The position numbers were made by a program, and so were the translations under genes. Positions 16,650 through 63,287 of a stretch of 64,000 nucleotides of DNA are shown here, piece by piece (position 1 is the first letter of the stretch; each line of letters begins with the position of its first letter). This DNA comes from Phormidium tenue FACHB-1052 (GTDB lineage Bacteria; Cyanobacteriota; Cyanobacteriia; Phormidesmidales; Phormidesmidaceae): positions 682,001-746,000 of the forward strand of contig NZ_JACJQN010000001.1 in the NCBI RefSeq assembly GCF_014696675.1, read 5' to 3'. The notes beneath the pieces were generated by a model. That model searched no databases, was not told the DNA's origin, and worked only from the letters and a program-made list of their open reading frames with translations.

Positions 16650-16695
16650 ATGGGGCGGGATGGGGGTGGAGGGGTGGGGAGTGGAGGGGTAGGTG
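16650..16695. repeat. G-rich degenerate repeat
   Basis: Runs of GGGGTGG/GGAGGGG-like units on the plus strand between plsC and DUF2288. A similar purine-rich run occurs inside radA at 22080-22122, suggesting a low-complexity repeat class dispersed in this genome. Confidence 0.6.
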
Positions 16696-21339: not shown

Positions 21340-21629
21340 GGCTCCCTACATAACGTCATATTCTATAAACAATCGCAACGTTTAATGATTAACTTTTGAA
21401 AGCTAATTAGTCGATTGAGCGAAACAGCCCTAGGCACCGCTAAAGCAGTCCCCTAAAACGCTGCCGGAGCAGGACTTACGACGTTTGATTTGATTATCCT
21501 ATGTGTATTGATTCATGCCGCATGCATGGAACATCTGTGCTTCAGGCTTTTTTAAGGTTTATTGCACAGTAGCGGCCATTGGTTTAGAGCCAAGTATCGC
21601 CCCGAGTAATCGGCGGGGCAGGGGTAGTG

Positions 21630-23150
21630 ATGGCTAAATCTCGTTCAATTTTTGTCTGCAACGAATGCGGTGCTGAGTCGCCCCAGTACTTTGGCCGCTG
21701 CCCCGTGTGCAACAGCTGGAATGCATTGGTGGAGCAGGCTCAGCCCGCTAAGGAGACGACCGCTCGGGCCTCTGCGTTAGGGCGCAGTCGGGGTGGGTCG
21801 ACAACGGCTAAGGTCAGTCAGCCGCGCTTGGCCATGACCCTAAACCAGATTCAAGACCATCCCCAGGCGCGGCTGCCTTCGGGCTATGGGGAACTCGACC
21901 GAGTGCTGGGCGGCGGTATTGTGCCGGGGTCACTGGTGCTGCTGGGGGGTGATCCCGGCATTGGCAAATCTACCCTGCTGCTCCAGGTGGCAAACCAGCT
22001 CGCGTCGCGGCAGCGGGTGCTGTATGTGTGCGCGGAGGAGTCGGGCCAGCAGGTGAAGCTGCGGTGGCAGCGCTTGGGGCCGGTGGAGAAGGTGGAGAGT
22101 GATGGAGTAGGGGGTGATAGGGTAAAAGCAAAAGGCAAAGGGCAAAGGGCAAAAAAAGAAGCGGTAGAAGATCTAGAGGTTTATGAGACTTCTGGCATGG
22201 AGGCGGTGGATAGCCAGCTGTTTTTGCTGCCAGAAATTGACCTAGAGACCATCTTGATGGAGCTGGAGTCGCTGAAGCCGACGGTGGCGATTATCGACAG
22301 TATTCAGGCGTTGTACTATGCGGCGCTGACGTCGGCACCGGGGTCGGTATCGCAGGTGCGGGAATGTACGTCGGCGCTGATGCAGCTGGCGAAGCGGGCG
22401 AATATTTCGCTATTTATTGTGGGTCACGTGACCAAGGAGGGGGCGATCGCAGGCCCCAAAGTCCTTGAACACCTTGTAGATACGGTGCTGTACTTTGAGG
22501 GCGATCGCTTTGCCAGCCATCGACTACTGCGATCGGTGAAAAACCGCTTCGGGGCCACCCACGAGTTGGGCGTGTTTGAAATGGTCGATCGCGGCCTGGC
22601 GGAGATTAGCAATCCTTCAGCCCTTTTCCTCGGCAACCGCGATGAGCAGGTGCCGGGCATTGCCACGATTGTGGCCTGCGAGGGCACAAGACCCCTGGTG
22701 GTGGAGCTGCAATCGCTAGTTAGCCCCACTAGCTACAGCTCGCCGCGCCGTTCCACGACGGGTGTGGAGTACAACCGGCTGCTGCAAATTTTGGCGGTGC
22801 TGGAGAAGCGGGTGGGGATTCCTCTATCTAAGCTCGATGCCTATGTGGCATCGTCCGGCGGGCTAGCGGTGGGGGAACCGGCGGCGGATCTGGGCATCGC
22901 GATTTCGGTGGTGGCTAGCTTTCGCGATCGCCTCGTCGATCCAGAACTCGTTCTCATTGGCGAAGTGGGCCTAGGTGGCCAAGTGCGCCCCATCTCTCAG
23001 CTAGAGCTGCGGCTAAAGGAGGCGGCGAAGCTGGGCTTCAAGCGGGCGATCGTGCCCAAGGGGCAGTCCGTAAAAGTAGACGGGCTGGAGATTGTGGAGG
23101 TGTCGCGGGTGGTGGATGCGATCGCCCATGCTTTGAAGGGAAGTGGGTGA
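21630..23150 (+). CDS. radA: DNA repair protein RadA (Sms) with an extra insert
   Basis: Helicase-like protein for recombination-intermediate processing. Visible are the N-terminal zinc finger CNECG plus CPVCN, Walker A GGDPGIGKST, the RadA-specific KNRFG motif in VKNRFGATHELGVF, and a Lon-like C-terminal domain. The ATG at 21630 follows a GTG at 21627; either is possible. At about 506 residues it is longer than typical RadA (~450-460). The excess is a charged, low-complexity segment at about residues 152-195 (numbered from GTG 21627), encoded by a repeat. It sits between the ATPase strand with EESGQQVKLRWQRLG and LFLLPEIDLE, a surface position. Confidence 0.95.
   Translation: MAKSRSIFVCNECGAESPQYFGRCPVCNSWNALVEQAQPAKETTARASALGRSRGGSTTAKVSQPRLAMTLNQIQDHPQARLPSGYGELDRVLGGGIVPGSLVLLGGDPGIGKSTLLLQVANQLASRQRVLYVCAEESGQQVKLRWQRLGPVEKVESDGVGGDRVKAKGKGQRAKKEAVEDLEVYETSGMEAVDSQLFLLPEIDLETILMELESLKPTVAIIDSIQALYYAALTSAPGSVSQVRECTSALMQLAKRANISLFIVGHVTKEGAIAGPKVLEHLVDTVLYFEGDRFASHRLLRSVKNRFGATHELGVFEMVDRGLAEISNPSALFLGNRDEQVPGIATIVACEGTRPLVVELQSLVSPTSYSSPRRSTTGVEYNRLLQILAVLEKRVGIPLSKLDAYVASSGGLAVGEPAADLGIAISVVASFRDRLVDPELVLIGEVGLGGQVRPISQLELRLKEAAKLGFKRAIVPKGQSVKVDGLEIVEVSRVVDAIAHALKGSG
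22080..22160 (+). repeat. low-complexity repeat inside radA
   Basis: Two parts: a purine-rich GGTGGAG/GGGGTGATAGGG-type run (about 22080-22122) and heptamer-like GCAAAAG/GCAAAGG units (22127-22160). The frame of radA stays open through both. Such heptamer runs are usually intergenic in cyanobacteria. Confidence 0.75.
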
Positions 23151-28120: not shown

Positions 28121-28191
28121 GAAGTTTTAAGTTTTAAGTTTTGAGTTTTGAATTAGCGAACTCAAAACTTAAAATTCAAAATTCAAAACTT
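28121..28191. repeat. AT-rich heptamer repeats forming an inverted repeat
   Basis: AAGTTTT-type units on the left (28122-28153) face AAAACTT-type units on the right (28163-28191) around AGCG. It can fold as a long hairpin between convergent genes and probably serves as a transcription barrier. This repeat style is widespread in cyanobacterial intergenic DNA. Confidence 0.7.
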
Positions 28192-63132: not shown

Positions 63133-63162
63133 GTTTCTATGTCTAAGGTTTCTATGTCTAAG
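63133..63162. repeat. tandem duplication of GTTTCTATGTCTAAG
   Basis: Two exact head-to-tail copies (63133-63147 and 63148-63162) about 125 bases upstream of the MFS gene. Confidence 0.85.
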
Positions 63163-63287
63163 GACTGTTTAGAAAAGGATAGTTGCAACTTTATCATCTT
63201 GTGAAAATTATCGTGTAAAAGATGTGGCTGTTGCTACACCCCCAGCAGGATAAGACGAGTTTTGACCTGTATTCCCACGCGATCGCC

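Follow-up and report, generated by a model that had tools for sequence, protein, structure and literature searches.

The heptamer array inside radA of Phormidium tenue FACHB-1052 is one case of a recurring process in which heptameric repeats are recruited and turned over, with the reading frame tolerating them, at a single disordered loop of RadA; a second gene acts as host as well. The DNA analysed was a stretch of 64,000 nucleotides (the window) from a genome of 5.82 Mb in 36 contigs (G000). In this genus and some other lineages, the loop leading from a helix to a strand of RadA is probably a tolerated, disordered acceptor site, filled and refilled with the heptamers current in the lineage. 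Tolerated turnover is the most likely reading and a single rare invasion is not favoured; the rarity claimed in the preliminary description does not hold, given that the heptamers of this one loop differ between members of the genus, that some other cyanobacteria have yet others there, and that other genes also contain translated heptamers. The case rests on about two dozen related genomes with differing repeats, on the contrast with the rest of the gene and on the second host gene, and provides a compact and testable instance of repeat DNA turned into protein sequence repeatedly at one place.

The radA gene and its variable loop

Table 1. Features of radA in the window (positions are those of the window).
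Feature	Positions	Strand	Remarks
radA/sms	21630..23150	+	alternative GTG start 21627; 506-507 aa; zinc ribbon, ATPase, Lon-like domain
Variable loop, 47 codons	22077..22217	+	residues 151-197 of the 507-codon frame; flanks WQRL and LFLLPEID
G-rich stretch	22099..22127	+	first 17 bases exact in the loop of the genome's own HerA-like gene; look-alikes elsewhere in the genome
GGCAAAG heptamer array, 3.7 copies	22128..22153	+	exact part 22134-22153; read as AKGKGQRAK
Acidic second half of loop	22154..22217	+	pattern E-x-x-[GS]-x-E-x-V

The frame that hosts the array is open from end to end over 507 codons (21627-23150), the ATG being the more likely start than the GTG. Its product is RadA/Sms: it matches TIGR00416 over residues 2-499 at 653.6 bits (cut-off 403.05) and has Pfam matches to the zinc-ribbon, ATPase and ChlI/Lon_C families. 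C10, C13, C24 and C27, GDPGIGKST and KNRFG are all kept, and in an alignment of 45 proteins these columns are mostly invariant, the remainder nearly so. Tandem Repeats Finder identified 3.7 copies of GCAAAGG with a period of 7, the exact part of which encodes residues 170-176 (GKGQRAK), and the period-7 run of 13 in the 47-codon loop was reached by none of 500 codon shuffles (printed p 0.002). Together with the TIGR00416 match and the open frame, these results confirm the earlier claims that GCAAAGG-like units stand behind a purine-rich run inside radA and are translated without breaking the frame. The bare GCAAAGG heptamer is not enriched across the window (23 observed against 16.55 expected, with as many in 10 of 100 shuffles), and only the array, not the bare heptamer, is unusual. 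An assembly error is an unlikely source of the array, as many other assemblies also have an open loop of this kind. Seven A in a row (22151-22157) close the array, in a register that, judged by eye, could favour -1 slippage.

Other repeats were also seen in the window. An intergenic pair of another family lies between two convergent genes at 28122-28190, where AT-rich AAGTTTT heptamers are followed by AACTCAA-like units that are partly complementary to them; a G-rich imperfect period-15 repeat, GGGGTGGGGGTGGA, occurs at 16657-16690 near the border of two minus-strand open frames; and the 15-mer GTTTCTATGTCTAAG is present in two exact copies at 63133-63163.

The best structure neighbours of the RadA model are the RadA entries 8rxc and 5lkm, and S. 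pneumoniae RadA (5lkm, 8rxc) has the same fold and domains but, when aligned, no counterpart of query residues 155-193. In the AlphaFold2 model, built with 45 aligned proteins, pLDDT is under 50 at residues 155-192 (numbered from the ATG), as the linker of the zinc finger is likewise low. This low-pLDDT loop sits between helix 139-149, which follows Walker A, and the next strand, 197-200. The preliminary description was thus right in expecting a loop, which is predicted to be disordered; its placement between conserved strands is not what the model gives, in which the insert joins a helix to a strand. In P-loop folds, helix-to-strand connections face away from the nucleotide and from the loops that contact DNA. 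In S. pneumoniae RadA the DNA-contact loop, RL1, spans residues 213-223 (PMC11612176), and a DNA-contact role for the window loop was dropped, RL1 being elsewhere by that account. Given the disorder in the model, the P-loop topology and the position of RL1, the window loop would be a flexible loop and not an active-site element, and, going by the topology of the fold, its product should be a flexible charged linker held away from ATP and the DNA-contact loops.

Repeat content of the loop across genomes

Between WQRL and LFLLPE, 31 of 33 non-cyanobacterial RadA records (the 33 include one from an unspecified bacterium) have 6 residues and the other two have 9 and 14, against 6-84 residues in 123 cyanobacterial loops from a class-wide draw. 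For this draw, genomes were searched with the C-terminal 173 residues and 145 of 146 matched, of which G000 and the members of two small-genome families (15 and 6 genomes) were excluded. On these lengths, the loop is an old and variable cyanobacterial extension. The preliminary description had named as its refutation an insert free of repeats and of one length in every relative, and this is not what the relatives have: loop length is 41-56 residues in 19 of 23 genus members, yet the DNA content differs and mostly belongs to different repeat families. GGCAAAG or GGCAAAA is found in the radA loops of G000, G004, G012, G002, G014, G021, G016 and G025, with GGGAGTC ahead of it in G002, G014 and G021; GGCAGAA in G003 and G013; GGCGGAA in G024; GGGAAAC in G008; GGGAAGA and its kin in G010, G019, G020 and G022; and GGAAGAA in G001, the remaining genus loops having worn repeats or no array. 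Outside the genus, the loops hold TCCAAAA, TCCAAAC, AACTCAA, GGGGAGA and octamers. In G165 (L363) and G112 (L371), a single radA loop stacks at least three unlike heptamer or octamer families, as a sink would.

When five repeat states, assigned by hand, are placed on a radA tree from which the loop was omitted, at least 11 changes are needed. This count is soft, given that 12 of 26 inner branches are open, that long branches join in two pairs and that the labels of worn arrays were also given by hand (G011 being scored as none). Many of the genus families are 1-3 bases apart, and drift of one old array may therefore explain part of the variation; the figures from related genomes are not independent of each other. 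Phase-variable simple-sequence repeats turn a frame on and off through their copy number; here the radA frame is open across the loop in all genus loops read except that of G025. In G025 (L031), whose assembly has long contigs, it is broken inside a loop with eight consecutive G, which is either an assembly error or a real loss. TGA occurs inside the radA matches of G002, G014, G013, G001 and G025, and TAA in that of G025, the loops of the other four being open.

The placement of the arrays was compared between the loop and the rest of the same radA genes, counting exact arrays of periods 5-11 with at least 13 matching positions. In the genus there are 11 such arrays in 10 of 23 genes (G025, G016 and G009, with a frame break or cut contig, are omitted), every one of them of period 7 and inside the loop (3,051 bases, 9% of the total), against none at periods 5-11 in the 31,422 bases outside it. 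In the class-wide draw outside the genus, 4 of 108 loops have period-7 or -8 arrays, one has a 6-mer and 103 have no exact array, while the rest of the gene has no 7- or 8-mer arrays and only two 6-mers in 149,241 bases. Further sets gave loop arrays in 1 of 24 family and class loci and 3 of 43 genome-contig loci, with none elsewhere in those genes; the sets outside the genus overlap in species, and L063 and L364 share one array. By shuffling, 19 of 80 loops (18 distinct) have repeats at p<0.01, as opposed to 0 of 42 zinc-finger linkers. Here 88 loops were found among 96 loci, the 80 of at least 30 bases were tested and the linker was parsed in 42; L058-L060 are G006, G017 and G002 again, and the loops of L038 and L068 are identical. 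Nodosilinea sp. FACHB-131, filamentous cyanobacterium CCT1 and Phormidium sp. FACHB-1136 have the same RadA loops as G017, G006 and G002, respectively, by which the genus is probably Nodosilinea. Six of the 23 genus loops, none of them short (G011, G017, G006, G007, G023, G015), fail p<0.05 for period 7 and are worn or arrayless.

Within G000, exact three-unit GGCAAAR has one match, located in radA, as does the broad pattern GGVARAV x3, and 20 sampled stretches of this genome gave two 13-base GGCAAAR matches; by these matches the GGCAAAG array does not appear to be a common element of its own genome. The exact 20-mer GGCAAAGGGCAAAGGGCAAA has 7 matches in 26 genomes, all in radA or the HerA-like gene. 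Counts of exact three-unit arrays vary widely from genome to genome within the genus (overlapping matches were each counted throughout). GGCAAAR arrays are present in 8 of the 26 genomes: radA is their sole location in G000, G016 and G012, and the HerA-like gene in G006; G004 has them in these two genes and nowhere else, G014 and G002 in radA plus elsewhere, and G001 elsewhere only. GGGAARM is found in 9 of 26 genomes, with radA the sole location in G008, G010, G022 and G020. A family may also be abundant and in radA, as is GGCAGAR in G003 (223 matches) and G013 (22) and GGGAGTS in G002 (83) and G021 (26), the latter family having one match in G000, and GGCAGAR-rich genomes may have something else there, radA holding GGAAGAA in G001 (81), no array in G015 (30) and GGCGGAA in G024 (16).

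An 18-mer from the G-rich half, allowing at most 2 mismatches, has 14 places in G000, the radA and HerA-like loops included, against 7 for a reversed control; about nine of the remaining places are G-rich and repeat-like, and lie within or close to open frames that have the C-rich strand as coding strand, or outside any open frame. The G-rich half is thus weakly a dispersed element of its own genome, with a small excess over the control. In a 464-kb sample of G000 (the window plus 20 stretches), two of four exact heptamer arrays are in no open frame and two are in frame in genes. The earlier suggestion that the unit normally lies between genes thus fails for G000 itself, but it holds for some relatives, in which heptamers of the same families are dispersed.

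The second host is a HerA-like gene with HAS-barrel and DUF87 domains, between which a loop holds repeats. The copy of G000 (L256 / G000:C1:62930-64657) has a G-rich loop that shares the exact 17-mer with the radA insert. This loop contains GGCAAAA in G006, GGCAAAG in G004, GGGAACA in G002, GGGAAGA in G012 and G015 (at a contig edge in the latter) and short G-rich repeats in G020, G025 and G011. The notion that one family occupies both loops of a genome had mixed results, the families being of the same kind in G004 and G006 and different in G012 and G002. In both genes the genus arrays have their purine-rich strand as the coding strand, giving Lys/Arg/Gly/Glu, which runs against the trend reported for Xanthomonas and Nostoc (PMC4692102), where G-rich repeats inside genes are depleted from the coding strand.

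Translated heptamers are also seen in other genes. The glycine dehydrogenase GcvP of G000 (L270:9670-12600) has in-frame AATTCAA heptamers, read EFKIQNSK, just after its GDC-P stretch (35-459). In a G014 sample, 9 of 16 arrays lie in Pfam-supported frames, with the C-rich strand coding in all nine: an AMP-binding ligase, an S15 peptidase, CobN (two), a Pyr_redox_2/AIRS fusion (two), a U32 peptidase, a MutS_V protein and an Ap4A phosphorylase. About 12 of the 20 stretches of this sample were picked around already known arrays, and the 16 arrays give no rate.

Origin and fate of the repeats

The best explanation takes in both copying-in and slippage. Heptamer units would first arise by slippage or be copied in, after which slippage would alter their number. 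Given that 7 and 3 have no common factor, every frame of an array would yield the same cyclic heptapeptide, and it is the overall length alone that would have to keep the frame; translation of the tested families gave one heptapeptide in every frame for a period-7 array and no stops in long coding-strand arrays. GGGGTGA, GGGAGTA, GGGGGTA and GGGTGAA have one stop per cycle and occur in the radA and HerA-like loops only as runs of fewer than three full units. Purifying selection on RadA, suggested by the absence of arrays outside the loop, would clear frame-breaking versions and arrays elsewhere in the gene. Finally, as comparison of the loops suggests, old arrays would decay to charged low-complexity sequence and be overwritten by other families. 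The loop itself would have been lengthened in cyanobacteria, from some 6 residues to 84 at the most. Copying-in of arrays from elsewhere is plausible in some genomes, and in-place slippage and drift may explain much. The rival explanations are narrower, and some are compatible with this one.

It is possible, though less likely, that replication slippage in place is sufficient and that a charged, purine-rich linker whose composition is what is conserved makes short tandem repeats without copying from dispersed ones. Consistent with this, radA is the sole three-unit site in 7 of 26 genomes (the GGCAAAR and GGGAARM genomes named above), the genus families resemble each other, and the GGCAGAR-rich G001, G015 and G024 have other content in radA. 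However, among periods 5-11 it is period 7 that prevails over 6 and 9, and no loop whose longest run is of period 3 exceeds 8 matches. Furthermore, the abundant family is sometimes the one in radA (G003 and G013, G002 and G021), the radA and HerA-like loops of G000 have an exact 17-mer in common, and unlike families are stacked in the single loops of G165 and G112, outside the genus.

A selected role for the loop is possible, and the domestication of a repeat-derived basic stretch, for instance as a DNA- or partner-binding segment of RadA, is an unlikely form of it. In 21 of 23 genus loops the basic residues lie, by mean position, ahead of the acidic ones. The acidic pattern E-x-x-[GS]-x-E-x-V follows in 19 of 23, against 0 of 61 loops outside the genus, a pattern that was drawn by eye from the genus loops and is hence fitted to them. 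Being common to most genus loops, this pattern speaks for some function; a part of the loop is thus not repeat-derived, and selection may act on it. Purine-rich coding in radA and the HerA-like gene, as opposed to C-rich coding in the nine G014 arrays, would also suit domestication, as would the fact that both hosts are ATPases of DNA-acting families (established for the RadA and HerA families). Nevertheless, G005 and G018 have short loops with no basic residue, loop content and length are variable, and RadA of other phyla manages without the loop; moreover, GcvP, CobN, the S15 peptidase and others have translated heptamers too, and these unrelated enzymes point to tolerance.

Less likely again is that the arrays are a frame-indifferent source of linkers, with RadA and the HerA-like helicase as privileged hosts in which arrays are continually renewed and kept by selection; if true, two genome-maintenance motors carry segments written by the repeat DNA of their own lineage. 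It is very improbable that the G-rich coding strand forms DNA or mRNA quadruplexes that tune radA expression or cause frameshifting, given that the window's own loop has no four-G-tract motif, by which a quadruplex there was ruled out, that loops outside the genus carry A- and C-rich repeats (TCCAAAA, AACTCAA) and that coding-strand G-rich repeats are under-represented inside genes (PMC4692102), despite four-G-tract motifs in 14 of 23 genus loops (a raw count), the broken G025 frame in a loop with eight G in a row and the in vitro quadruplexes of G-rich Xanthomonas and Nostoc heptamer oligonucleotides (PMC4692102).

In summary, tolerated turnover suggests a rule for repeats able to live in genes, namely a period not divisible by three and a stop-free strand, and such recycling of repeats into protein is apparently harmless. 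For annotation, it is a warning that loops of this kind can be repeat-derived and that gain or loss of repeats can break frames.

Comparison with known repeats

Heptameric short tandemly repeated repetitive sequences (STRR) are a cyanobacterial repeat class. The window array has tandem seven-base units as they do. The GGGGA(C/T)T repeats of Nostoc PCC 7120 are 68% intergenic and part intragenic (PMC4692102), and the likeness to them extends to related G-rich types, which some relatives of the window genome have in dispersed copies. Unlike these mostly intergenic repeats, the window array lies in the middle of radA, a conserved housekeeping gene, with its units on the coding strand; the site is reused by different families, and the GGCAAAR unit has no other exact three-unit copy in its own genome. 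A literature search, mostly without subscription papers, found no title on repeats in cyanobacterial RadA.

STRRs are also present within RNase P RNA, and heptanucleotide repeats within the Nostoc tRNA-Leu intron. As in RadA, the repeats there form a peripheral, length-variable element of a functional gene product, but these products are RNA and, unlike radA, have no reading-frame constraint. Rickettsia palindromic elements are found in frame within conserved proteins and are palindromic with a fixed consensus. They resemble the RadA loop in being repeat DNA kept in frame inside a conserved protein, whereas the RadA loop is made of short tandem units and, at 75% purine on one strand, is no palindrome over its length. 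The heptameric repeats themselves are thus already known, and their recurrent translated turnover in the RadA loop is a new variant.
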